Part shown: positions 10,252-27,006 of the stretch, in pieces | Layout: the number at the start of each line of letters is the position of its first letter | How positions within the stretch are numbered: position 1 is the stretch's first letter | NCBI GenBank assembly: GCA_003635305.1 | Contig: PYJE01000183.1 | Coordinates: 1-36,594 of the forward strand | Direction of reading: 5' to 3' | Length of the DNA: 36,594 nt | Source of the DNA: Candidatus Poribacteria bacterium | GTDB lineage: Bacteria; Poribacteria; WGA-4E; WGA-3G | Translations under genes and position numbers: made by a program | Notes under the pieces: model-generated | What the model saw: only the letters and a program-made list of their open reading frames with translations | Told to the model about the DNA's origin: nothing | Databases searched by the model: none

Positions 10252-12015
10252 CTACCAATACAAATTATTTGTGGTATGTCCTTCCGGAATGGGCACCCAC
10301 ACACCGCCTGTCTTCGCCGCTACCTGCTGTTGGAAATCGTCAAAAGTGCCGATGACGCTGACACGCGCATGCATTTGCTGCAAGAGTTGAATTGTCGCTG
10401 CCGCCGAGTATTTGCCCTCGGCAGGTTCATCGGTAATCAGGATGAGATGCAACTGCGCGTTCGGGCGGCGTTGCATCCGCCGCAATCCTTCTTCCACTGC
10501 ATCTAGCAACATTTCATTCTCTTGGCACGGCAATTCAGCGATTTTCCGCACTTGCCCCAGCGTCTGCGGCGGATTGAAAACGTTCACCATATTGACAGAG
10601 GCGCGCGTCCGGAACCGCACTACGCCGATTTGGTAGTCAATCAGCGCGTTATCCCAATCTTGAACGAGGAGTTCAAGCTGCTGCAAAAAGTGTGGCAGTT
10701 TGTCCTCCATGCTCTTGCTGGCATCAATAAAAAGGATAACGTCAAGTGGTGTCTGCCCACCTTGTTCGGCGGCGTGCTTTGTCAACGCGCCGCCGATTTT
10801 CCCGATGTTTGCCCATTGTGCGTTGCGCAGCGTCTGCATTTTAGAACGAACGGCCCCGGGCGAATGCGGCTTCGGTATTCCCCGCGGCTTCGGCGCGTCT
10901 TGCGGAATGCGGTGCCACTTGCCGCTTGTCTCTGCTGCTAATTTCTGATGTTCGTCGTCGCGGAGCCCAAGCACATTCACCGCGATGCCAAACTCGCGGC
11001 AGTATGCGATGGCATCGTCTACCGTCCGTTTTTTTAGACTCGTGAACGTTTCGTCGGTGACGAGAATAAAATGCCGTTTGGAAGTAGCCCGAAATCGGAG
11101 TTCCTTCACCGTCTGCACGATGGCATCCAGCGCGTTTTCATCTTGTTGCGGGGTTATCCCGCGGATGGTGCGTTTGTATTCGGCGAGACTCTTCGTCAAC
11201 TGAAACACTTTAATGATGTTTCGCTCCAAGTCTTGGTGCATCCAGAATTGCGTCAAACCGAGCGCGTAATCGATTTTGGCGGCGGTGTAGACATCAATCA
11301 TCGCCATCAAATGTTCCGCAACAGCCTTGATATTATCGCCCATGCTGCCGCTTGCATCGATGAGAAAAACGACATCAACCGGTCTGCCGTCGCTCGTTGC
11401 CACGATTTCCTGCGCGAGCCCTTTCATTAACTGACGAAATTGCGTCTGATTGACAACCGGCGGGTTTTTCGGGTTATCTTTGGAGGCGAAGACTTCTTCG
11501 TGGGCTGTCTGCGCCGTGACGTTAAGCATCGTGGAAGAACTTTTCGGCACGCGTAACACGCCGCTCCGTTTCGTCCCGTAGCTGCTGCCGCCTGTCACGC
11601 CAGTTGCCTCAGTCGTCGGCAGCTCACGCGCAACGTTCCACAGCGCACGTGAAGCAGTGCTGACATCCGGCGTTACTTCCGGTGAGACAAGCACCTGACT
11701 CAGGCGCGGCTGCGTGGTATCCACCGGGCGTGTTGACACGAGACTCGGTTGAAATCCTACCTCCGGTGCAATGGATTCCACCTTCGCGATGGAGACAGCC
11801 GCTGTATCTCGCAGCGGCTCGCGAAAAGCGGGCGCGTGCTTTTTCAGCGGCACCTTCGGTTGAAGTGGTTTGGCCACGGGTATCAACGCCGCCTCGATGC
11901 TCCCCTTTACCGGCGACAGCGGCTGATTTTGCATCAGGACGTAGAATGCTGTCACCAACAAAAATAAATGGAGACTTAGTGAGATGAACAAGGCGCGACG
12001 TGTTGCAGACTTCAT
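10252..12015 (-). CDS. Membrane-anchored protein with two von Willebrand factor A domains
   Basis: I set the start at ATG 12015 (587 aa) because the transmembrane segment (about residues 7-28, ALFISLSLHLFLLVTAFYVL) begins there; the track's 12051 adds 12 unlikely residues. A Pro/Lys/Ala-rich linker follows (KPLQPKVPLKKH), then VWA domain 1 with MIDAS DASGSMG near 220 and FILVTDE near 320, and VWA domain 2 with a degenerate DASKSMED near 431 and LILITDEPAEGK. The second domain has Lys instead of Gly in DxSxS, keeping the metal-ligand positions. The bulk is expected in the periplasm. Its position next to the sigma/anti-sigma pair suggests shared regulation. Ligand is unknown. Confidence 0.8.
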   Translation of the reverse strand: MKSATRRALFISLSLHLFLLVTAFYVLMQNQPLSPVKGSIEAALIPVAKPLQPKVPLKKHAPAFREPLRDTAAVSIAKVESIAPEVGFQPSLVSTRPVDTTQPRLSQVLVSPEVTPDVSTASRALWNVARELPTTEATGVTGGSSYGTKRSGVLRVPKSSSTMLNVTAQTAHEEVFASKDNPKNPPVVNQTQFRQLMKGLAQEIVATSDGRPVDVVFLIDASGSMGDNIKAVAEHLMAMIDVYTAAKIDYALGLTQFWMHQDLERNIIKVFQLTKSLAEYKRTIRGITPQQDENALDAIVQTVKELRFRATSKRHFILVTDETFTSLKKRTVDDAIAYCREFGIAVNVLGLRDDEHQKLAAETSGKWHRIPQDAPKPRGIPKPHSPGAVRSKMQTLRNAQWANIGKIGGALTKHAAEQGGQTPLDVILFIDASKSMEDKLPHFLQQLELLVQDWDNALIDYQIGVVRFRTRASVNMVNVFNPPQTLGQVRKIAELPCQENEMLLDAVEEGLRRMQRRPNAQLHLILITDEPAEGKYSAAATIQLLQQMHARVSVIGTFDDFQQQVAAKTGGVWVPIPEGHTTNNLYW

Positions 12016-12084
12016 GGTGGTTTCTCTTGCACATTCGCGAGGAGCAGGCACTCGCGTTACGGGAAGTAGTTCTTCCTATGAGTT

Positions 12085-12735
12085 CTATCGGAATTGAGGC
12101 ATTTTCAACGAACGTTTCGGTTGCTCGTCCCGAATTACCTCAAAAGAGATTAGTTTTTCAGCGGTATCAAGTTCCGCTTGTGCGGTGCCGGCAAACCTAT
12201 CGCCGGGCGGCGCGTAAAGCGTCACACCTACCATCGTGAAAATGGTAAAGCAGAGCGCGAACGTGCCGGCTAACCCCGGCGGGCTGTGCGCGGGGATGTT
12301 TTGCCGCGCCCATCCGAGCGAAGTCTCAACGCACCGCGCAAGACGCTTCCCGATAGCAAACAATGGTGAACGGTGTTCCCGTTGATGCTGATACATTTTC
12401 GAGGCGCGCGTCACGACACTAGCCACGAAATCATCGGATGATGGAAGAGACTCCTCCGCGCGGAGAAACTTATCCATTTGCTCCAACCGCCGCACGTGAA
12501 ACGCGCAATTCGGGCACCGTTTCAGATGCTGCCGGACGAGTAGCCGTTTCCACGCCGGCAGCTCCTTGTCAATGTAGGCTGAAAAGTGCGTGTGAAGTTC
12601 TTCGCAGTGCCTTGTCGGCGGGATTTCCCATTCCCGATGTTTGTATGTCGGCTTGCTTTGTTCAGCGACTCCCAGGCTGATAACGTTGTCTTTCCAGGCT
12701 GTCTTGACGTTGTCGAGCCTTGCATCATTTTTCAT
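12085..12735 (-). CDS. Anti-sigma factor with N-terminal zinc finger and one transmembrane helix
   Basis: A 216-residue protein. The cytosolic part carries a ZAS-type zinc-binding motif: CEELHTHFSAYIDKELP at 44-60, then His70, Cys74 and Cys77 in RQHLKRCPNC. One transmembrane helix lies at about 154-175 (GLAGTFALCFTIFTMVGVTLY), leaving a short periplasmic tail. Such proteins hold an ECF sigma factor until a signal triggers release, often by proteolysis. Its start lies 11 bases inside the 3' end of the sigma gene, so the two are translationally coupled. The N-terminal extension of about 40 residues before the finger is longer than usual. Confidence 0.85.
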   Translation of the reverse strand: MKNDARLDNVKTAWKDNVISLGVAEQSKPTYKHREWEIPPTRHCEELHTHFSAYIDKELPAWKRLLVRQHLKRCPNCAFHVRRLEQMDKFLRAEESLPSSDDFVASVVTRASKMYQHQREHRSPLFAIGKRLARCVETSLGWARQNIPAHSPPGLAGTFALCFTIFTMVGVTLYAPPGDRFAGTAQAELDTAEKLISFEVIRDEQPKRSLKMPQFR

Positions 12736-13321
12736 TGACGTTTTCCCCCAATCCTGCCTTGATGAGCAGTTTTTTCATGCGCTGTCGCGCGCGGTGCACT
12801 AACGCTTTCACCGCGCCTTCGGAGATGCCGAGAATGTCGGCCACTTCTTCATAGCGCAAATCTTGGTATGTGACAAGCGTTAACGCTAGCCGTTGATTCT
12901 CTGGAAGCTGCGCCAGTGCCTTTCGGACAATCTGCCGCCGTTCCTCTTTCTCCGCCAGCGCGTCTGGCTGATAGCGCGTATCCTGCATCATGCTTGTTTC
13001 GTGGATATCCGCGCCGTCTTCCACCAAATCTTCAAAAAAGTAGGTATTCCGCCGCGCCCGATTTCGCACCTCGTTTCGGGACAAGTTGGTAGCGATGGTA
13101 TACATCCAACTTTTGAAGGAAGCCGTTGGTTGATAGCGGCTCGCGTTTTGGAAGACGCGGAGAAACGTCTCCTGCGCCAGGTCTTCCGCACGGTGATAGT
13201 CGTTAATAAGCCGATGAATGTAGTTAATCAGCGGCTCCTGATGCCGCCGCACCAACAATTCAAACGCGCTCATATCACCCTTCCCGCTTTGCATGATCAG
13301 GTCTTCGTCTGAAACAAACAT
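12725..13321 (-). CDS. ECF (RpoE-like) sigma-70 factor
   Basis: A 198-residue extracytoplasmic-function sigma factor. Region 2 covers about 15-85 (AFELLVRRHQEPLINYIHRL, DYHRAEDLAQETFLRVFQ, FKSWMYTIATNLSRNEVR), then an acidic linker, and sigma region 4 at about 135-188 (LPENQRLALTLV, YEEVADILGISEGAVKALVHRAR). It should direct RNA polymerase to a small regulon, probably including its own operon. It overlaps the anti-sigma gene by 11 bases. No Shine-Dalgarno site is seen before the ATG; a promoter-like pair ends three bases before it. Confidence 0.93.
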   Translation of the reverse strand: MFVSDEDLIMQSGKGDMSAFELLVRRHQEPLINYIHRLINDYHRAEDLAQETFLRVFQNASRYQPTASFKSWMYTIATNLSRNEVRNRARRNTYFFEDLVEDGADIHETSMMQDTRYQPDALAEKEERRQIVRKALAQLPENQRLALTLVTYQDLRYEEVADILGISEGAVKALVHRARQRMKKLLIKAGLGENVNEK

Positions 13322-13401: not shown

Positions 13402-13929
13402 CTATTTGAGTTTGAGCCGCAAGGCAGTTTTATAGGCAGCCACTGCTTCGCGACGCTTGCCTTGGAACGTGTAAACGGCACCGAGTTCGGAATGCAGCTC
13501 GGCATGATGCGGAATAAAATGGATGGCGCGCTGATAAACCTCAATCGCCTCATCGTAGCGTTTCAGCAGGCGATAGGTAGCGGCGAGATTGAGATGCGCC
13601 GCTGCTTCCTTCGGTTCACACGCAATCGCCTTTTTGTAGGCATCAAGTGCCTGCTCATAATCACCGAGCATAAAACGCGCTAAGCCGAGATGGAAATGCG
13701 CCTCTGCAGATTCGCGGTTGTGTTGCAACACCGTCTCAAATGCCGCAATCGCTTCCGGATACTGCCGCGCTTTTAACGCCGCTGCACCCTGCTTTAAGTG
13801 CTTCGCGACAGTTTGATACGTGTGAATATCGACGCGCCCGCGTTGAACGTGGTCTGCCCGTTTCCGGCTTTCGGAGACGCTTGTCGCATCGCTTGGAGTT
13901 AGGTTGCGGTTCTCATTCGGCTTATCCAT
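13402..13929 (-). CDS. Tetratricopeptide repeat protein
   Basis: A 175-residue protein with a charged N-terminus (1-40) and about four TPR units from residue 41: LKQGAAALKARQYPEAIAAF, AHFHLGLARFMLGDYEQALD, AHLNLAATYRLLKRYDEAIE, LHSELGAVYTFQGKRREAVA. TPRs form superhelical protein-binding surfaces. No signal peptide is evident, so it is probably cytosolic. It starts one base after the stop of the SUMF1-like gene, so the two are almost certainly one operon. Partner is unknown. Confidence 0.85.
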   Translation of the reverse strand: MDKPNENRNLTPSDATSVSESRKRADHVQRGRVDIHTYQTVAKHLKQGAAALKARQYPEAIAAFETVLQHNRESAEAHFHLGLARFMLGDYEQALDAYKKAIACEPKEAAAHLNLAATYRLLKRYDEAIEVYQRAIHFIPHHAELHSELGAVYTFQGKRREAVAAYKTALRLKLK

Positions 13930-13930
13930 A

Positions 13931-14836
13931 TTACTGCCTGTTTATATCGCGCGCGATGCGGCATCCGATGACGAATTCGGCATACCCTTTGCTAAAAAAA
14001 TCGTAACTCGTGCAGGTGCTGTAGTCGTGATTGTAATACCATGCGCCGCCGCACGCAACGCGGAAATTGCCGGCATCGTCATAAGGCGTGCAGGTCCACT
14101 CCCACACATTTCCCACCATATCGTAGCAACCGAAGGAGCTCACACCGCCGAGAAAAGTGCCGACCGGGGTGGTGTCATCTGCACCGAGTTCAGCGGTATT
14201 GCATCGCGGTTTATCAATCTCATCTCCCCAGGGAAAGAGCCTATCGTCGGCACCTCGTGCGGCGTATTGCCATTCGGGAAAGGTTGGTAATCTGCCTCCG
14301 ACGTAAGTGGCATACGCCTCGGCATCTTCGCAGGTAACCCAGACGACAGGATGATCTCCCTGATTTTCGGGGTAGGTTCCCCCTGTCCAATTCTGTGGCG
14401 GTTCGCGGCCCGTGTCCACCACAAACCGCTGATATTGCGCGTTCGTGACAGGATAGACGCTCATCTCATAAGCGTCAACTTCAAGCGGCGCGCAGTCCTC
14501 GCCGATAAGCGCGGTGCCTGCGGGAATACGAACGGTTGCATCCAGCACTTGCAGTGCGGCATCGCGTACCTGTTTATCCGAATGCGCCAGCGCGTATCCC
14601 ATCGGTGAGATGAGTCCGCCGACAGGCGGTATCAAGGTTTGCGGCATCTTTTCCCAGCCGAGTTCGGTAGTTAACAAGAGCCGTGCTGCGTCGCGGAGTG
14701 CATCGTTGAAATGCCAGAGCCAATACTCTCGGAGGAGTTTCTGAAATGCCGCCGGGTCATCGCTGTCAATTAGCGCGATGCGGGTTTCCTTCAGCCGTGT
14801 GATATTGAGGATATGCTGGTTTGAACCGTTGTTCAT
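13931..14836 (-). CDS. SUMF1/FGE-fold protein (formylglycine-generating enzyme-like), probably not a true FGE
   Basis: The start is set at ATG 14836 (301 aa) because GGGGGAGC lies just before it; the track's 14914 would overlap mazF by 65 bases. The first 110 residues are a helical region of unknown function (ALRDAARLLLTTELGWEKMP). The SUMF1 domain then follows: VDAYEMSVYPVTNAQYQRFV, GDHPVVWVTCEDAEAYATYV, GRLPTFPEWQYAARGADD, FPWGDE, YDMVGNVWEWT, CGGAWYYNHDY and a closing GCRIAR. The paired active-site cysteines of true FGEs are not apparent in the GGAWYYNHDYSTC segment, so it is more likely a binding or ergothioneine/peptide-modifying relative. It is coupled to the TPR gene downstream. Confidence 0.78.
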   Translation of the reverse strand: MNNGSNQHILNITRLKETRIALIDSDDPAAFQKLLREYWLWHFNDALRDAARLLLTTELGWEKMPQTLIPPVGGLISPMGYALAHSDKQVRDAALQVLDATVRIPAGTALIGEDCAPLEVDAYEMSVYPVTNAQYQRFVVDTGREPPQNWTGGTYPENQGDHPVVWVTCEDAEAYATYVGGRLPTFPEWQYAARGADDRLFPWGDEIDKPRCNTAELGADDTTPVGTFLGGVSSFGCYDMVGNVWEWTCTPYDDAGNFRVACGGAWYYNHDYSTCTSYDFFSKGYAEFVIGCRIARDINRQ

Positions 14837-14849
14837 GCTCCCCCACGTG

Positions 14850-15209
14850 CTAGAGTTCACCCGTAATTTCCAAGAGGGTTCCAAGTTTTTGTAACACCTC
14901 TTCCATCGTTTCATCGGGCATTTCGCAGATAAATATGGCTTCCCGTTCCGGCCACGCTATGCACCGGACCTGGTCTGCGAGAATAACCCCAACTATAGGC
15001 AATCCGGTAGGGATAGGCACCTCAAAAGGGTAGCCTTTGACTCGCGTCGTGATTGGACAGATGACTGCCAGCTTCGCGTCTCGGTTGTATTCGCTTTGCG
15101 ATAGGACAAGGGCGGGACGATGGCCGGCCTGCTCAGACCCTTTGTGAGGGTTCAAGTCAATCCATACCACATCGCCTCGCCACGGAAAGTAATCGGTTGT
15201 TCCTACCAT
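14850..15209 (-). CDS. mazF: MazF/PemK-type mRNA endoribonuclease toxin
   Basis: A 119-residue toxin of the type II TA family that cleaves mRNA at specific sequences. The family signatures are WRGDVVWIDLNPHKGSEQAG, HRPALVLSQSEYN, KLAVICPITTRVKGYPFEV (catalytic Arg/Thr region) and GVILADQVRCIAW. Its ATG lies inside the last codons of the antitoxin gene (7-base overlap), the usual coupling for mazEF. The SUMF1-like gene starts 14 bases after its stop. The toxin looks intact. Confidence 0.92.
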   Translation of the reverse strand: MVGTTDYFPWRGDVVWIDLNPHKGSEQAGHRPALVLSQSEYNRDAKLAVICPITTRVKGYPFEVPIPTGLPIVGVILADQVRCIAWPEREAIFICEMPDETMEEVLQKLGTLLEITGEL

Positions 15210-15607
15210 ACCTCTTTGCCCACCGGCGGCCCGAAGTCAATCTCTTCGTGCCGGTTTTCCTCTGTGATTTGTGCCAAGAGGTCTTTGAGCGTGTAATCCG
15301 GCTTCCTGACACGGATGCGCGGTTCCTCCGTTCGAGTCCGTTTAGCAGGAGAGGGTGCTTTAACCTGTTCCGCATCCGGGGACTGCTTCAGTTCCTCTGC
15401 ACGAAAGAAATACGTCTCTTCCGGAATCTCGCGCACCGGTTGCCCTGCACACGCCACATCAACTGCGGTTTGCTCAGCGTCTTCCGATTTGGGCAGCTGC
15501 GCTAAAAGAGCTGCCAGCGTATAATCAGGTTTCCTGACACGAATACGCGGTTCTTCTGTCCGCGTGCGCTTGCCTGGAACCTTAAGATTGTTCTTTTCAG
15601 GAGTCAT
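15203..15607 (-). CDS. MazE-like antitoxin lacking the AbrB DNA-binding half, with a duplicated C-terminal motif
   Basis: The last 36 residues, RVRKPDYTLKDLLAQITEEN then RHEEIDFGPPVGKEVW, are the classic MazE C-terminal toxin-binding segment. Upstream, where MazE normally has a SpoVT/AbrB swapped-hairpin domain (about 45 residues with WGNS...RIPK), no such sequence is seen. Instead the segment KRTRTEEPRIRVRKPDYTL and LLAQ occurs twice, at about residues 13-37 and 88-112, separated by an acidic linker. At 134 aa it is far longer than usual MazE (about 80). It probably neutralises the toxin encoded at 15209; whether it can bind DNA for autoregulation is doubtful. GGAAGG lies about 13 bases before the ATG. 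Confidence 0.82.
   Translation of the reverse strand: MTPEKNNLKVPGKRTRTEEPRIRVRKPDYTLAALLAQLPKSEDAEQTAVDVACAGQPVREIPEETYFFRAEELKQSPDAEQVKAPSPAKRTRTEEPRIRVRKPDYTLKDLLAQITEENRHEEIDFGPPVGKEVW
15282..15347 (-). repeat. Intragenic direct duplication in the mazE-like gene (copy nearer the 3' end)
   Basis: Encodes KRTRTEEPRIRVRKPDYTL; partner copy at 15506-15575 in the same orientation and frame. The two share TTCCTGACACG and CGCGGTTC blocks on the plus strand with scattered, mostly synonymous, differences, so the duplication is not recent. Confidence 0.75.
15506..15575 (-). repeat. Intragenic direct duplication in the mazE-like gene (copy nearer the 5' end)
   Basis: Partner of 15282-15347. It replaces the position where the AbrB-type domain would be expected. 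Confidence 0.75.
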
Positions 15608-20404: not shown

Positions 20405-20560
20405 TGCATTTTGACGTGTTGCTCTTCATCAGCAGCCTCACGGATGTGGCGGCGTTTGCGAGAGATAGCATGCGCGGCTGAAGATGGCACCGTCCGATTG
20501 TGGGACATCCCCGGGCGAAACTTAACAAGTCTCCCGCCGACAATCCACGGAAACCGATAA
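20405..20560 (+). pseudogene. Remnant of a WD40 repeat gene, frameshifted
   Basis: In one frame the plus strand reads LTDVAAFARDSMRG and then a stop; shifting one base restores AAEDGTVRLWDIPGRNLTSL before a stop at 20558. Joined, this is a normal WD40 unit (compare VALAFSADGKRL and DTTVRLWD in the intact gene at 18335). It has no start codon context or upstream units, and its 3' end overlaps the 3' end of the convergent transglutaminase gene. I read it as the C-terminal stub of a decayed propeller gene. Confidence 0.55.
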
Positions 20561-21553
20561 TTCATGCGTCCCACTCCCAAAAACAACCCCCTTTAGCAAC
20601 GTCACATCCGAATAATCGCGTCCCCACGCCACCGTGATATGCTGCTCCCCTGGCTCCTGATTATTCGTCGGATCGAAGTCTAACCACTCGCCGCAACTTG
20701 CCGTAGACGTGCGTTCCAAAGAGTTTCCGGAAGGGCGGCTTTGTAAATAATTTTCCGTTGGCGTGTGTGGAACGCGCGCCACATCTGGCACATACACCGA
20801 AAACCATGCATGCGACGCATCTGCACCCGCTAACCGCTCCTGTCCAAGCGGCGGCATCGTCTCAATATACCCACTCACATATCGCGCGGCTAACCCCATC
20901 GCCCGGAGACATCCAATCCCCAAATGCGCGAAATCTTGGCAGACACCCCGACGGTGTGCCAACACCTCCGCCAGCGGTGTCGCAACCGTCGTCCATCCCG
21001 GGTCGTAGGTAAAATCGGTATGGAGCCGTGCGGTTAGATCGCGGACTGCCTCTTGCAAAGTTCTCCCATGTGCAAACGATGGCGTTGCATACTCGCGAAG
21101 TTCTGGCAACCGCGTCGGAATCATGGGCGAATCCAACACATACTGCCGCGTCTCCAAAATTTCTGGATGCAGTGACGTTTGAAGCTGCTCCCGAACCGCC
21201 TCCCATGCCTCGCTTTCAGAGCTCTCTCTCGCCGCCGTGCTATGCCGCTTCACCTCCACCTGACTCGTTACCGTGACGGTAAGTGTTTGATGCGGCCGCT
21301 GAATCGCAAAATAACAGACGGTATTCCCGAAGAAATCCTCACGCTCGCGATAACTTGTCGGCTGCGGCTCAACGACAAACCGACTGCCGTGAACCTGCTG
21401 CAAATGCCCCCACGCCGACAAAACCCCACTCGGCGTGTAATGTTTATACGGATGCCTCGCAAAGTCCCTCGGTGTCAACCGCGCCTCGTTATAGGATAAA
21501 TTCGCCGTGTTGCTGTAGGTGTAGTGCGTCTTATGCGTAATTTGATAATGCAT
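20522..21553 (-). CDS. Transglutaminase-like cysteine protease/amidase family protein
   Basis: The track starts at 21643, but those 30 residues translate a family B repeat; MHYQITHKTHYTYSNTANLS at 21553 is the typical beginning of this family (343 aa). It carries an N-terminal Bact_transglu_N-type beta domain and the catalytic triad Cys205 (RRGVCQDFAH), His248 (DASHAWFSVY) and Asp294 (WLDFDPTNN). About 25 extra residues (PHTPTENYLQSR... ) lie between His and Asp, where relatives are usually shorter. It is last in the ATP-grasp/alpha-E cluster and is expected to cleave or transfer peptide bonds made by it. Confidence 0.88.
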   Translation of the reverse strand: MHYQITHKTHYTYSNTANLSYNEARLTPRDFARHPYKHYTPSGVLSAWGHLQQVHGSRFVVEPQPTSYREREDFFGNTVCYFAIQRPHQTLTVTVTSQVEVKRHSTAARESSESEAWEAVREQLQTSLHPEILETRQYVLDSPMIPTRLPELREYATPSFAHGRTLQEAVRDLTARLHTDFTYDPGWTTVATPLAEVLAHRRGVCQDFAHLGIGCLRAMGLAARYVSGYIETMPPLGQERLAGADASHAWFSVYVPDVARVPHTPTENYLQSRPSGNSLERTSTASCGEWLDFDPTNNQEPGEQHITVAWGRDYSDVTLLKGVVFGSGTHELSVSVDCRRETC

Positions 21554-21581
21554 TATCTTCGTCAACCAAATTGGCCAATTC

Positions 21582-21609
21582 GGTAGTGCGAGGGGGCTGT
21601 CTCTCGCGA
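21582..21609. repeat. Family B repeat, diverged
   Basis: GTAGTGCGAGGGGGCTGTCT then CTCGCGAA, between the fused ATP-grasp gene and the transglutaminase start at 21553. Confidence 0.65.
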
Positions 21610-21658
21610 ACTCCAATTGAAACGAAACCGCCCGGTCCTTCAAGTTCTCTACAATTCT

Positions 21659-24313
21659 CTAATTCACCGTTACCAACTGTTGCGGCCCCTGCACGTGACT
21701 AAAATAGGTTCGCGTCAACGTCTCCGAAAGTTCATGCAGCAGCTGTGCTAACCGCGCCAACAACTTCTCTAATCCCTGCCGCAGTTGCCCGGAACGTTCC
21801 GCAAGGTGCCTCGTATTTGATAGTTGCAGTTGCGTCAACGCCTCCAAAATTAGCTGCTCTTCTTCGCTGAGTCGGTACCCCAGTTTCTCCCGCGGCAGCG
21901 AGCAAATATGCTGCTGGAGCCGTTTCAATTGATAGAGTAAGGAACGCGGATTGCCCCGGTCAAGCAGCAGCAACTCCAACACCGTTGGGAAGTGCAGTTC
22001 GGCGCGATACCTTCCTCGATACGTAATCAGACTCTCCGCGGCGGCCAAAATCGCCTCCAGCAGCCGATTTTCGAGCCAATCGTCATACGCGCCGACAATG
22101 CTAGAACGGCACAGCCGAATGAGCAGGAGTGCGCGTTCAATCCGCCGCCCCATATCTAGACTCAGCCATCCTATCGTCTGCGTCATGCTTTCCGCGTTTA
22201 AACCTGTCAGTGCAGCCAGAAAAATCATCAACCTATCCAATTCTGTCTGGATATCCTGCAGGGTGTGCGCTTCCAACGCTGTGCCTTGTCCGCGGGCGTG
22301 TCCGCCCGATTGCGATGCTGTAAGTTCTCTTTCAAGCGCGGTGCATAAATTTTCAATGTTATTCATCACGCGCCAAGTATCGGTAGACCAGCGGTCTCGC
22401 ACAGCATACGCCGCGCTTACCATTGACTGAAGCGTTGAGACGAGGCTACTGCTATTTTGTGTATCCAACGTGAGAGAAAACAACTCATCGGATAACGTGG
22501 CGTTGCGCTTCTCCGTAGGCGCGGCTGTCCCCGAAAACCCGGTAACCGAGCGAAACAGATTGTGCAGATATGTCAATTCAGAGCCATCCCGTGCATCCTC
22601 TGCTAACGGACTTGTCTGCAGCGTATCCAAAATAATCCGTAGCAATCGCGCCTGTCCTTCCGCGCGTTCTGCATAACGTCCTACCCAAAACAGATTTTCC
22701 GCCGCGCGGCTTGACAACCCGCGCGAATTTCCGACGTTATCATACGCCAACGGACGTAGCCCATTCTTCGGCTGCCGCCATAAACTGACATGCGGTTCGG
22801 GTTCATCTGCTAGCACCCATGTATCCTTACTCACGCCACCGGCGCGGCTAGAGACGATTAGCGCGCCTTTCTTCGCTGCACTCCGCGTTAGTCCCCCCGG
22901 CATCACCACATATCCCTCTTGCTGTGCGAACAAGAAGCTGCGCAGCGTCGCGTGCCGCGGCTCCAACTTGCCATCAATCAACGAAGGCGTTGTGGAGAAA
23001 TGCACCTGCTCCTGTCCGACGTAAAGATGTGGTTCCGCGCAGATTTGCTTGCGCAGTGTTTCCAACTCCGCCTTGCTCATCTCTGCGCCAAACAGGGGAT
23101 AGGCAGCCATCGGTTTCCGGTGAATCGTTTTGATAACGAGGCGTTCAAGGTTCTCCAGCACATACACGCGCTCCTCTCGCTGCCCGCACCACCACGTCGC
23201 TACTGATGGCAACAGCAGTGAGCTATCAGCGGTAATGCCAAACCACTTCGCGATGCTTGGCAAAAACGGCATCAGGCCGGGGTTCTCCAAAACGCTAGTT
23301 CCTGGCGCGTTCACGACGACGACATTCCCTAGCCGAATCGCCTCCATCAACCCTGCAACGCCGAGTCGCGAGTCCTGCCGCAATTCCAGCGCATCGCAGA
23401 AGACATCGTCGACTCGCCGCAAGATAATATCGACGGGAAGCAACCTATCTAGCGATTTCAACCAGACGCGCCCATCCCACACCCTCAAATCACCGCCTTG
23501 CACCAGCGTATAGCCGAGATAACTCGCCAGATATGCATGCTCAAAATAGGTTTCGTTCAACGGGCCGGGGGTTAGCACCACCACATGTGGGTTTGCCTTC
23601 CCGTGCGGTGCCATTTCCTCCAATTCGTTCTGCATCGCACGAAAAAAGAACGAGAGCCGATGCACTCCGATATCCCCGAACAGATTCGGCATTACCCGCG
23701 CTAGGGCAGTGCGGTTCTCCAGTGCATATCCCGCGCCGGAGGGAGCCTGCGTCCGGTCGCTCAGCACCCACATCTGTCCATCTGACCCTCGTGCCAAATC
23801 GGCTGCATACAGTAGAAGCAACTTCCGGGTAGCGATACCACCAGTTTTCTCGGCGGCGATACCGTCACATTCCCGCAAAAATCCCGCGTGCGCGTACACA
23901 ACCTCCGGCGGCAGCACTCCCTCCTTGATAAGCCGACGTTCCCCATACACATCCATCAGCACGCGATTCAGCAACTCGGCGCGCTGCGTCAACCCTGTCG
24001 CAATCTTCTCCCATTCTGCCGATGAGAATATCAACGGAATCGGATCCAGTTCCCACGGCCGATGCCCCTGTTCCTCGCCATGCACGACATAGGTGACTCC
24101 GTTCTCGCGCAACAGCCGCCGCAACTCTTGATGCCGCGTCTCCATTTCCTCAAGCCCGAGGGTTTGCAATGCCGCGATAAAGGCTTGCCAATGCGCGTGG
24201 ACTTGCCCGATGCCATCGAACATCTCGTCTTCCGAGGCATCGCCCGTGCGCGATTCGGTTAACCGATAATTTTCGTCAATGACGGTGTAGTGTGTGTTAT
24301 TTGAACGTTGCAT
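21659..24313 (-). CDS. Circularly permuted ATP-grasp protein fused to an alpha-E domain
   Basis: The start is taken as ATG 24313 (884 aa); the track's 24346 begins at TTG. Residues about 60-480 are a circularly permuted ATP-grasp domain: VLPPEVVYAHAGFLRECDG, MWVLSDRTQAPSGAGYALEN, VLTPGPLNETYFEHAYLASY, VDIILRRVDDVFCDALEL, NVVVVNAPGTSVLENPGLMP, and GGLTRSAAKKGALIVSSRAG. From about 535 the helical alpha-E domain starts (SRAAENLFWVGRYAERAEGQ) and runs to the end, with LELLLLDRGNPRSLLYQLKR. ATP-grasp domains make amide bonds via acyl-phosphates; alpha-E has no known activity. The separate genes upstream carry the same two domain types unfused. Confidence 0.88.
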   Translation of the reverse strand: MQRSNNTHYTVIDENYRLTESRTGDASEDEMFDGIGQVHAHWQAFIAALQTLGLEEMETRHQELRRLLRENGVTYVVHGEEQGHRPWELDPIPLIFSSAEWEKIATGLTQRAELLNRVLMDVYGERRLIKEGVLPPEVVYAHAGFLRECDGIAAEKTGGIATRKLLLLYAADLARGSDGQMWVLSDRTQAPSGAGYALENRTALARVMPNLFGDIGVHRLSFFFRAMQNELEEMAPHGKANPHVVVLTPGPLNETYFEHAYLASYLGYTLVQGGDLRVWDGRVWLKSLDRLLPVDIILRRVDDVFCDALELRQDSRLGVAGLMEAIRLGNVVVVNAPGTSVLENPGLMPFLPSIAKWFGITADSSLLLPSVATWWCGQREERVYVLENLERLVIKTIHRKPMAAYPLFGAEMSKAELETLRKQICAEPHLYVGQEQVHFSTTPSLIDGKLEPRHATLRSFLFAQQEGYVVMPGGLTRSAAKKGALIVSSRAGGVSKDTWVLADEPEPHVSLWRQPKNGLRPLAYDNVGNSRGLSSRAAENLFWVGRYAERAEGQARLLRIILDTLQTSPLAEDARDGSELTYLHNLFRSVTGFSGTAAPTEKRNATLSDELFSLTLDTQNSSSLVSTLQSMVSAAYAVRDRWSTDTWRVMNNIENLCTALERELTASQSGGHARGQGTALEAHTLQDIQTELDRLMIFLAALTGLNAESMTQTIGWLSLDMGRRIERALLLIRLCRSSIVGAYDDWLENRLLEAILAAAESLITYRGRYRAELHFPTVLELLLLDRGNPRSLLYQLKRLQQHICSLPREKLGYRLSEEEQLILEALTQLQLSNTRHLAERSGQLRQGLEKLLARLAQLLHELSETLTRTYFSHVQGPQQLVTVN

Positions 24314-24386
24314 ATCTCTTTTTCGTCCAATTCCGTTCGTTCGCAAGCCCTCGGCGGACGGTTGCCTGCCTGACGGTACCCCAAAT

Positions 24387-25421
24387 CTACCTTAGGAGCG
24401 AGGGGGGCCTGTCCCTCGCCATCCTTTGAGTGCGGGGAAATTTCTGTAGCTGCTCGTTTTCCGTTCCTCCTTCATCCACCGGACGCAGCGCAAAAAACGT
24501 TTCATGCACATCGGCTCCAACCAGATTCAACTTCGTCTGAAACGCGTCCAAAAATTCATGCAAACCGGTTGAGAGCAACTGCTTCACCTGTGCATAAGCA
24601 AACTCCGAACGCAATTGTCCGAGCCGCTGCTCGGCCGAATTAGAGAACGTCTCCAAGGGCGTGCCAGAAATCGCGTGGAGTGACTCCTCCGCCTTTGACA
24701 GGCAATAAAGCACTGAGCGCGGAAACTCCCGGTCCAGCAACAAAAACGCTACTACCTGCGTCGGCGCGATTAATCCGTGCGTCCGCCGGTACATCTCAAA
24801 TGCACTTGCAGAATGCAACAGCGCGCCCCACTGAATATCGTCAAACGGTGTATCCACATGCCACAACGAGGGCAGCAGAATAAAGTATTTCACATCGACG
24901 ATGCGCGAAGTCTTGTCCGCACGCTCAATCAATCTGCCTAACCGACAGAAATGCCACCCTTCGCTGTGAGACATGCTGTTATCGGTTAACCCCATAAACA
25001 GTTGCGAGGCCCGTTTAATTTCGCCGAAGAACTCGTGCGGCTCTGTCATTGCCCACTCTTCTGTCGCTTCTGTCACCGTCAAATAGGCCACGTTGAGCTG
25101 CTCCCACATTTCCGATGAGATATTCTCTCGGATAGAGCGTGCATTCTCCCGCGCTGCCCGTAAACAGGAGATGATTGAATTCGGGTTCTTTTTGTCAAAT
25201 GTCAGAAACCGAATCACTGTCTCCTGTGATGCCTCGCCGTACTGTTCAGCGAACACTTCGTCGTCGCCCGTTGTCGCCACCAGCGGGTTCCACTGCGTCT
25301 GTATCCCCACCGGCAAATCCAGCATCAGATGCAGATTCACATCAACAAACCTGGCGACGTTCTCTGCACGTTCAATATAGCGGCTCATCCAATAAATCGA
25401 TTCTGCCACGCGACTCAACAT
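24387..25421 (-). CDS. Alpha-E domain protein
   Basis: Start at ATG 25421 (344 aa), where the family begins: MLSRVAESIYWMSRYIERAE; AAGGGAAAGGGA is upstream. The track's 25475 start translates a family B repeat. The protein is all helical, with ENVARFVDVNLHLMLDLPVG, FCRLGRLIERADKTSRIVDV and FLLLDREFPRSVLYCLSKAE. The last residues, MARDRPPSLLR, are encoded by a family B repeat that also sets the stop at 24387, so the normal C-terminus seems to have been replaced by repeat sequence. Role is unknown; it is always found with permuted ATP-grasp proteins. Confidence 0.87.
   Translation of the reverse strand: MLSRVAESIYWMSRYIERAENVARFVDVNLHLMLDLPVGIQTQWNPLVATTGDDEVFAEQYGEASQETVIRFLTFDKKNPNSIISCLRAARENARSIRENISSEMWEQLNVAYLTVTEATEEWAMTEPHEFFGEIKRASQLFMGLTDNSMSHSEGWHFCRLGRLIERADKTSRIVDVKYFILLPSLWHVDTPFDDIQWGALLHSASAFEMYRRTHGLIAPTQVVAFLLLDREFPRSVLYCLSKAEESLHAISGTPLETFSNSAEQRLGQLRSEFAYAQVKQLLSTGLHEFLDAFQTKLNLVGADVHETFFALRPVDEGGTENEQLQKFPRTQRMARDRPPSLLR
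24398..24420. repeat. Family B repeat encoding the C-terminus of the alpha-E gene
   Basis: GCGAGGGGGGCCTGTCCCTC then GCC; read on the minus strand it encodes MARDRPPSL just before the stop. Confidence 0.8.
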
Positions 25422-25436
25422 AGTCCCTTTCCCTTC

Positions 25437-25467
25437 CTCGTAAGGCGAGGGAAACTTGTCCCTCGCC
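25437..25467. repeat. Family B repeat (8-bp arms, altered loop)
   Basis: GGCGAGGG and CCCTCGCC with an AAACTTGT loop, between the alpha-E start and the ATP-grasp stop. Confidence 0.75.
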
Positions 25468-25508
25468 GTGCTCACTGTAAACGGGGATGTCTCTCTCCAC
25501 CGGCTTAT

Positions 25509-26963
25509 CTATGACGCGTTTGACAACACCCACGTATCCTTACTCCCGCCGCCCTGCGACGAATTCACCACCAACGAACCCTTCTTCAGCGCGACTCGTG
25601 TCAACCCACCGGGAAGGACATAAATCTCCTCACCATACAAGATAAAGGGACGCAAGTCAACGTGTCGTCCCTCAAACCGCCACTGTGCATCGTCATCGAT
25701 TAGCACAGGCACCCGTGAAAGTGCAAGCGTCGGCTGTGCGATATAGTTCCGCGGATTCGCCTGAATGCGCTGCGCGAACTCCTGTTGTTCGGCCCTTGTG
25801 GAGTGCGGTCCAATCAGCATTCCATAGCCGCCGGACTCGTTCGCCGCTTTCACAACGAGTTCGTCCAGATGCTCCAACACATACTTCCGGTCTGAGTCTT
25901 CCCAGCACATATAAGTCGGCACATTGGGGACGATAATCTCTTCGCCGAGGTAGTATTTGATAATTTTCGGCACGAAGGCGCACACCACCTTATCATCGGC
26001 GACGCAAGTGCCAGGCGCGTTCACCAAAGCGAGCCGGCCTGCTTGATAAGCCTCCATCAACCCCGGCACGCCGAGCATCGATTCCGAGCGGAACAAGTTC
26101 GGATCCAAGAAATCGTCGTTAATTCGGCGATAGAGGACATCGATGCGTTCAAATCCCTTCGTCGTCCGCATGTGCACGAACCCATCCTGCACCACCAGAT
26201 CGCGGCCCTCCACCAACGCCACGCCCATCTGCTGCGCGAGGAACGAATGTTCAAAATAGGCGGAGTTATAGACACCCGGTGTCAGCACCGCAATCTTCGG
26301 CACTTTCACCTTATCGTTGGCCAGGTATTGGAGCATGTCGAGGAGCCGGCTCGGATAATCCTCGACCGGCTCAATCTGCGACATCCCGAACAATTGCGGG
26401 AACGTCCGCTTCATCAGATTCCGATTCTCCAACACGTAGGAAACCCCGGATGGACACCCGAGGTTATCCTCTAATACATAATATTGTCCATCGCGGTCGC
26501 GCACCAAGTCAGTTCCTGTGATATGGCACCAAATGCCGCGCGGCGGATCCAAACCAATGCACGGTTCAAGATACCGATTAGACGAGAGCACCACTTCCGC
26601 CGGCACTACCCCGTCCTTCAGAATCTTCTGTTCATGATATACGTCATCAATGAACAGGTTCAGGGCATGGATGCGCTGCTTCAGCCCGCGTTCGATCCAC
26701 TCCCACTCGCTTGCATCGATGATGCGCGGCATGAGATCGAAGGGAAAAATCTTTTCAACGCCTTGTTCATCGGCATAGACATTGAACGTAATCCCCAGTT
26801 GCAACAGCGCGCGCTCCGCCGCAATCTGCCGACGCAGCAGCTCTCCAGCCGGCAGCCGTTCGATGCGCTCCATCAATATCTGCGCAGCGGGCCGCGGACT
26901 TCCATCCGGTGCAAACATCTCATCATAAAATTCATCGGTGGTGTATCCATCAAATATTGACAT
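25509..26963 (-). CDS. Circularly permuted ATP-grasp protein (type 2, stand-alone)
   Basis: Start at ATG 26963 (MSIFDGYTTDEFYDEMF, 484 aa), the canonical N-terminus; the track's 27005 is a TTG. The permuted ATP-grasp signatures are all present: YVLEDNLGCPSGVSYVLENR, VLTPGVYNSAYFEHSFLAQQ, IDVLYRRINDDFLDP, LALVNAPGTCVADDKVVCAF, YMCWEDSD, LVVKAANESGGYGMLIGPHS and a terminal GGLTRVALKKGSLVVNSSQG. It keeps the EDN motif that the fused paralogue has as SDR, in line with two subfamilies. It is predicted to ligate amino groups to carboxylates with ATP. It is first in a four-gene minus-strand cluster; the upstream gap holds two family B repeats. Confidence 0.9.
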   Translation of the reverse strand: MSIFDGYTTDEFYDEMFAPDGSPRPAAQILMERIERLPAGELLRRQIAAERALLQLGITFNVYADEQGVEKIFPFDLMPRIIDASEWEWIERGLKQRIHALNLFIDDVYHEQKILKDGVVPAEVVLSSNRYLEPCIGLDPPRGIWCHITGTDLVRDRDGQYYVLEDNLGCPSGVSYVLENRNLMKRTFPQLFGMSQIEPVEDYPSRLLDMLQYLANDKVKVPKIAVLTPGVYNSAYFEHSFLAQQMGVALVEGRDLVVQDGFVHMRTTKGFERIDVLYRRINDDFLDPNLFRSESMLGVPGLMEAYQAGRLALVNAPGTCVADDKVVCAFVPKIIKYYLGEEIIVPNVPTYMCWEDSDRKYVLEHLDELVVKAANESGGYGMLIGPHSTRAEQQEFAQRIQANPRNYIAQPTLALSRVPVLIDDDAQWRFEGRHVDLRPFILYGEEIYVLPGGLTRVALKKGSLVVNSSQGGGSKDTWVLSNAS

Positions 26964-27006
26964 TGCAGTCTGCTCTCTATTCGGAAATTTCTCTGTTCGA
27001 TTCAAT

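Follow-up and report, generated by a model that had tools for sequence, protein, structure and literature searches.

Organization and distribution of the locus

The window analysed here, a 36,594-nucleotide stretch of DNA from Candidatus Poribacteria, encodes on its reverse strand three consecutive genes, namely a stress-type ECF sigma factor of 198 aa (12725..13321), a class I zinc-binding anti-sigma factor of 216 aa (12085..12735), and a 587-aa protein (counted from its ATG) with two VWA domains and a TonB/TolA-type membrane anchor (10252..12015). The sigma factor was assigned from Pfam matches to Sigma70_r2 (4e-18) and r4_2 (5e-17), both above cut-off, and from orthologues that adjoin an anti-sigma gene; the anti-sigma factor from a zf-HC2 match (3.9e-9), alignments and an AlphaFold2 model; and the third protein from Pfam VWA, AlphaFold2 and its orthologues. 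With sigma regions 2 and 4 on one side and an adjacent HxxxCxxC ZAS protein on the other, the first two genes have the make-up of an ECF/class I anti-sigma pair. As the original prediction had stated, the pair overlaps by 11 bases (12725-12735) and is separated from the VWA gene by 69 bases, a gap which follows from placing the VWA start at ATG 12015, the candidate favoured over GTG 12051 by orthologue comparison.

Each of the 54 retrieved loci with sufficient contig showed the same order and strand (sigma, anti-sigma, VWA); spacing was tabulated for 53 of these. Upstream of the trio lie, also on the reverse strand, genes for a TPR protein (13402..13929), which falls outside the core, and an FGE-sulfatase domain protein (13931..14914); both are conserved neighbours in family f1 only. 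In the host family the wider block comprises FGE, TPR, the trio, PurN and AP_endonuc_2. The trio also occurs in one f3 and one f8 genome, where flanking genes differ, and since these loci lack the FGE, TPR, PurN and AP_endonuc_2 flanks, the trio itself is the unit. Retention of order and strand in 54/54 loci, including the two other-family loci with unrelated flanks, further indicates linkage beyond chance. The view of the three genes as one module is thus upheld, the VWA gene adjoining the pair in every one of these relatives rather than in none, and the trio represents a real conserved module of sponge-type Poribacteria. A phylum search recovered a full-length VWA orthologue (about 46-82% identity) from almost all genomes of the host family, the exceptions being incomplete genomes. 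All named relatives belong to Candidatus Poribacteria, and a contig scan based on two short peptide patterns only found none outside this group. In the set of papers searched, we found no description of an ECF/anti-sigma/VWA trio or of a TonB-VWA fusion.

In seven loci (L059, L062, L075, L077, L078, L058 and L066) the VWA gene is tandemly duplicated after the anti-sigma gene, giving arrays of 2 to 5 whole or partial copies, of which some have a single VWA domain and in which intact N-termini retain the SxxxH motif described below. Elsewhere in the window, two overlapping ORFs (together 14850-15607, reverse strand) suggest, by eye, a toxin-antitoxin pair in which part of the antitoxin is duplicated: one, of 119 aa, begins like MazF/PemK (WRGDVVWIDLNPHKGSEQAGHRPALVLS), and the other, of 134 aa, contains the stretch KRTRTEEPRIRVRKPDYT twice. 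A further cluster on the reverse strand (20522-27005) presumably encodes a transglutaminase-like protein and several large circularly permuted ATP-grasp/alpha-E-like proteins.

A TonB/TolA-type membrane anchor on the VWA protein

The original description of a single-pass protein with two VWA domains agrees with Pfam, which matches VWA in two stretches (E=3e-20), and with AlphaFold2, which predicts one N-terminal transmembrane (TM) helix at residues 4-29 (11929..12006), disorder at residues 32-188, and two VWA folds. The linker (residues 31-188; 11452..11925) is variable, has pLDDT values below 50 over 32-121 and 123-188, and is rich in Pro and Lys near the membrane, with 14 Pro within the 90 residues 31-120. 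In VWA1 (residues ~190-373; 10897..11448) the MIDAS residues D220-x-S222-x-S224 and D321 are invariant, as are D431-x-S433-x-S435 and D529 in VWA2 (residues ~386-583; 10267..10860). The full MIDAS (DxSxS, Thr, Asp) is complete in VWA1 of most orthologues, and the MIDAS Thr of VWA2 is not conserved across them. Only VWA-type domains exceed the Pfam cut-off, and a TonB_C or TolA_C head is absent.

The most informative feature of this protein is one that the original prediction had overlooked, namely its TonB/TolA-type membrane anchor. Among 21 orthologues, A8, S12 and H16 are the only invariant residues within the first 124, and once distant paralogues are added, invariance within the N-terminal 70 residues is confined to the S12 and H16 columns. 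The resulting SxxxH motif occurs in the N-terminal TM helix of 70 of 74 VWA homologues, the four exceptions comprising two truncated sequences, one with a mis-set start (in which the motif is actually there) and one signal-peptide paralogue. By comparison, one of 84 control N-terminal TM proteins, drawn from 400 kb of a congener, possesses the motif, and this one is another VWA protein. Fourteen VWA homologues display a complete or near-complete SHLS, which in TM helices is the published contact of TonB/TolA to ExbB/TolQ, with Ser-x3-His as its core (PMC12215075). Genuine TonBs of the same phylum are laid out alike, their first motif position being Ser or Ala. Furthermore, when the complete NCBIfam set (18,950 models) was searched, the TolA model matched, far below its curated cut-off in every case, 9 of 16 VWA N-termini vs 0 of 16 controls (Fisher p=0.0004, a value that overstates independence because the 16 N-termini are related to each other). 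The best of these matches has E=0.0013, and the window's own VWA N-terminus aligns in register with the model start. A Pfam scan of the VWA N-termini returned no TonB/TolA family, such that only the full-length NCBIfam TolA model detects them.

In TonB, the D-box, a proline-flanked strand in which hydrophobic and polar residues alternate, binds the ExbD dimer (PMC10907165). The strand following the TM helix of the trio VWA protein conforms to this pattern in 2 of 70 sequences under a strict definition and in 41 of 70 under a looser core definition; as judged from these patterns, its ExbD-binding box appears degenerate. Textbook boxes directly after the TM helix are found in SxxxH paralogues (for example EIQVELFSELP and VVSVEFINEKELPKPRR). 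Poribacteria have a wider family of VWA proteins with the SxxxH anchor that are encoded away from the sigma/anti-sigma pair (L094:10198-12390, L102:7032-8147, L103:6258-7808, L160-L172, and G027:C2 ~366340-367369), and several of these have a clear D-box.

These features bear on whether the protein might simply be a conventional adhesin-like VWA protein held in the membrane, its gene no more than a target of the sigma factor and its SxxxH a chance property of the TM helix. Some VWA proteins are adhesins, and the best solved Foldseek match is the tandem VWA of mussel PTMP1, with collagen VI also among the best PDB matches; however, the invariance and rarity of SxxxH, the enrichment of TolA model matches and the identical type of anchor in many paralogues make this explanation unlikely. 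By its anatomy the VWA protein instead looks like an energy transducer, although it is not a member of the TonB or TolA families, as their defining C-terminal head is absent.

Motor genes and a proposed role of the module

Consistent with the components that such a transducer would need, the window's own genome encodes an ExbB/TolQ-type protein adjoining two ExbD/TolR-type proteins, and ExbD, TonB_C proteins and TonB-dependent receptors were identified in every genome tested. No ExbB or ExbD gene was seen beside the trio. Membership of the VWA protein in a Tol-Pal system was considered and rejected, as TolB (TolB_N) was not found in the six genomes searched. At one locus (L104:6305-8371), ExbB is extended at its N-terminus by a segment judged by eye to be carboxypeptidase-regulatory-like; two ExbD genes come next, with no adjacent tonB.

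The functions that we propose for the trio proteins are all read from their sequences, whereas the gene order, its conservation, the SxxxH motif, the arrangement of domains and the existence of motor genes were observed directly. We consider it fairly probable that the module pairs sigma/anti-sigma regulation with an envelope effector powered by the proton motor, namely the VWA protein acting as a TonB/TolA-like energy transducer. The SxxxH helix would dock on an ExbB/TolQ-type stator and the flexible linker would reach into the periplasm, where the two VWA domains may substitute for the usual TonB_C/TolA_C head. Force transmitted in this manner might then act on a periplasmic or outer-membrane partner gripped by the VWA head, probably via a metal bound at the MIDAS of VWA1.

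The VWA gene would most likely be co-transcribed with the sigma and anti-sigma genes. Between the anti-sigma and VWA genes neither a promoter nor a terminator rose above chance in the window, which gives no sign of the separate VWA promoter considered in the original prediction. An ECF-type promoter upstream of the sigma gene, through which the sigma factor might regulate itself, was likewise not seen in simple scans; such autoregulation is common among ECF/anti-sigma pairs but does not define them. Upstream of the sigma gene, two f3 genomes share an identically placed sigma-70-like promoter, TTGATR-N17-TATAAT, a likeness to fecIR, which is reported to be transcribed by sigma-70 (PMC9249621).

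A D-box-like periplasmic tail on the anti-sigma factor

The anti-sigma factor comprises a ZAS domain (residues ~41-93, with H70-x3-C74-x2-C77), a TM helix (~153-173) and a tail of about 40 residues (174-216; 12088..12216, reverse strand), which alignment identified as its most conserved periplasmic part and which AlphaFold2 predicts to be unstructured. Residues 196-202 of the tail read ISFEVIR, followed by PKR, position 202 being R or Q among orthologues; F198, E199, V200, I201, P206, K207 and R208 are kept in 51-54 of the 54 anti-sigma orthologues. As a sequence pattern, this segment equals the published D-box of TonB. The strict pattern was found in 42/54 anti-sigma tails vs 5/83 control tails, and the core pattern in 53/54 vs 28/83. 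In sister families, residues are changed and the alternation is kept (ISVTVIS, IQVDLVS, VQVDLIQ and VEFEIVS), with ISVTVIS nearly identical to the E. coli D-box ISVTMVT.

These observations raise the possibility that the anti-sigma factor is itself a client of ExbD, such that sigma activity would report on the Ton motor, either its state or its occupancy, and the VWA transducer would be a competing client, an output, or both. This would be an added claim, compatible with the transducer role proposed above. Beyond the conservation and pattern counts of the tail, it is favoured by a position-specific scoring matrix (PSSM) built from the boxes of the VWA paralogues, by which 7 of 8 sister-family tails had only 0-3 of 82 controls scoring above them. 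A PSSM built from TonB boxes, however, was negative for the trio anti-sigma tails, and the window's own tail is unremarkable, with 15 to 67 of 82 controls scoring higher depending on the training set. The pattern counts must also be read in light of the orthologues not being independent and of short beta-strand motifs being common, and the anti-sigma TM helix lacks SxxxH. The hypothetical reading of the Ton motor by the sigma factor thus has good statistical support in sister families and weak support in the window's own family, and we regard an ExbD-bound anti-sigma factor as possible rather than probable. The fuller scheme, in which an ECF pathway reads the Ton motor directly through an ExbD-bound D-box on its anti-sigma factor while a linked TonB/TolA-anchored VWA protein competes for, or is driven by, the same motor, is proposed slightly more tentatively and seems less likely than not.

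The phylogenetic distribution of the pair bears on the tail's partner. Among the other families, f2-f5 include at least six genomes (L288-L293) whose orthologous sigma/anti-sigma pair lacks an adjacent VWA gene, and in six such genomes the tail strand is conserved. The VWA protein is therefore not a necessary partner of the tail, and its role as an obligatory one was rejected; persistence of the tail in such genomes is also in keeping with ExbD as its target. The original prediction holds in part: the module stands as a conserved unit, the VWA protein is not an obligatory sensor, and its suggested sensing of an envelope state governed by the sigma factor stays conjectural. A more specific form of that idea, which posits direct binding between the VWA domains and the anti-sigma tail, the former as co-sensor or stabiliser, would fit the tight genetic linkage, the MIDAS in VWA1 and the nearly invariant acidic E199 of the tail, but retention of the strand where no VWA gene adjoins the pair renders it quite improbable.

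Comparison with known systems

The sigma/anti-sigma pair resembles the RsrA/ChrR types of class I (ZAS) anti-sigma/ECF pairs in its zf-HC2 zinc motif and overlapping genes, and differs in the additional conserved, short D-box-like tail; NCBIfam RsrA and ChrR models matched only below cut-off. With FecI-FecR-FecA it shares an ECF sigma factor, a single-pass anti-sigma factor and a possible tie to Ton-type energisation, whereas here the anti-sigma factor consists of zf-HC2 and a short tail, with no FecR domain found, and the locus contains no TonB-dependent receptor: none with a signalling domain was detected near the trio, the scanned neighbours being FGE, TPR, PurN, AP_endonuc_2 and an unmatched ORF.

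Bat/MoxR-VWA systems likewise present a periplasmic VWA domain anchored in the membrane; here, in contrast, a scan of eight proteins at and near the locus identified no MoxR ATPase or Bat partner. Association with a proton-driven motor is known for CglB of Myxococcus, and a MIDAS-bearing VWA domain linked to such a motor would be the feature in common. CglB is a surface lipoprotein, whereas in the Poribacterial protein the VWA domains are fused to the transducer-type anchor itself. In Myxococcus, CglB serves as a VWA adhesin of gliding motility (PMC12282271).

The closest parallels are with the TonB/TolA transducers, which have in common with the VWA protein a single N-terminal TM helix with SxxxH (SHLS), a flexible Pro-containing linker, a periplasmic head, and ExbB/ExbD encoded in the genome. 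Here the head consists of two VWA domains in place of TonB_C or TolA_C, and the gene adjoins an ECF sigma/anti-sigma pair. Known transducers of this type power outer-membrane transport or integrity via few head domains; if our interpretation is true, an integrin-like VWA pair as head would broaden the range of targets on which the ExbB/ExbD motor can exert force, in a group of bacteria with many genomes from sponges. Should the anti-sigma factor also bind ExbD, the module would provide a direct transcriptional readout of the state of the Ton motor.
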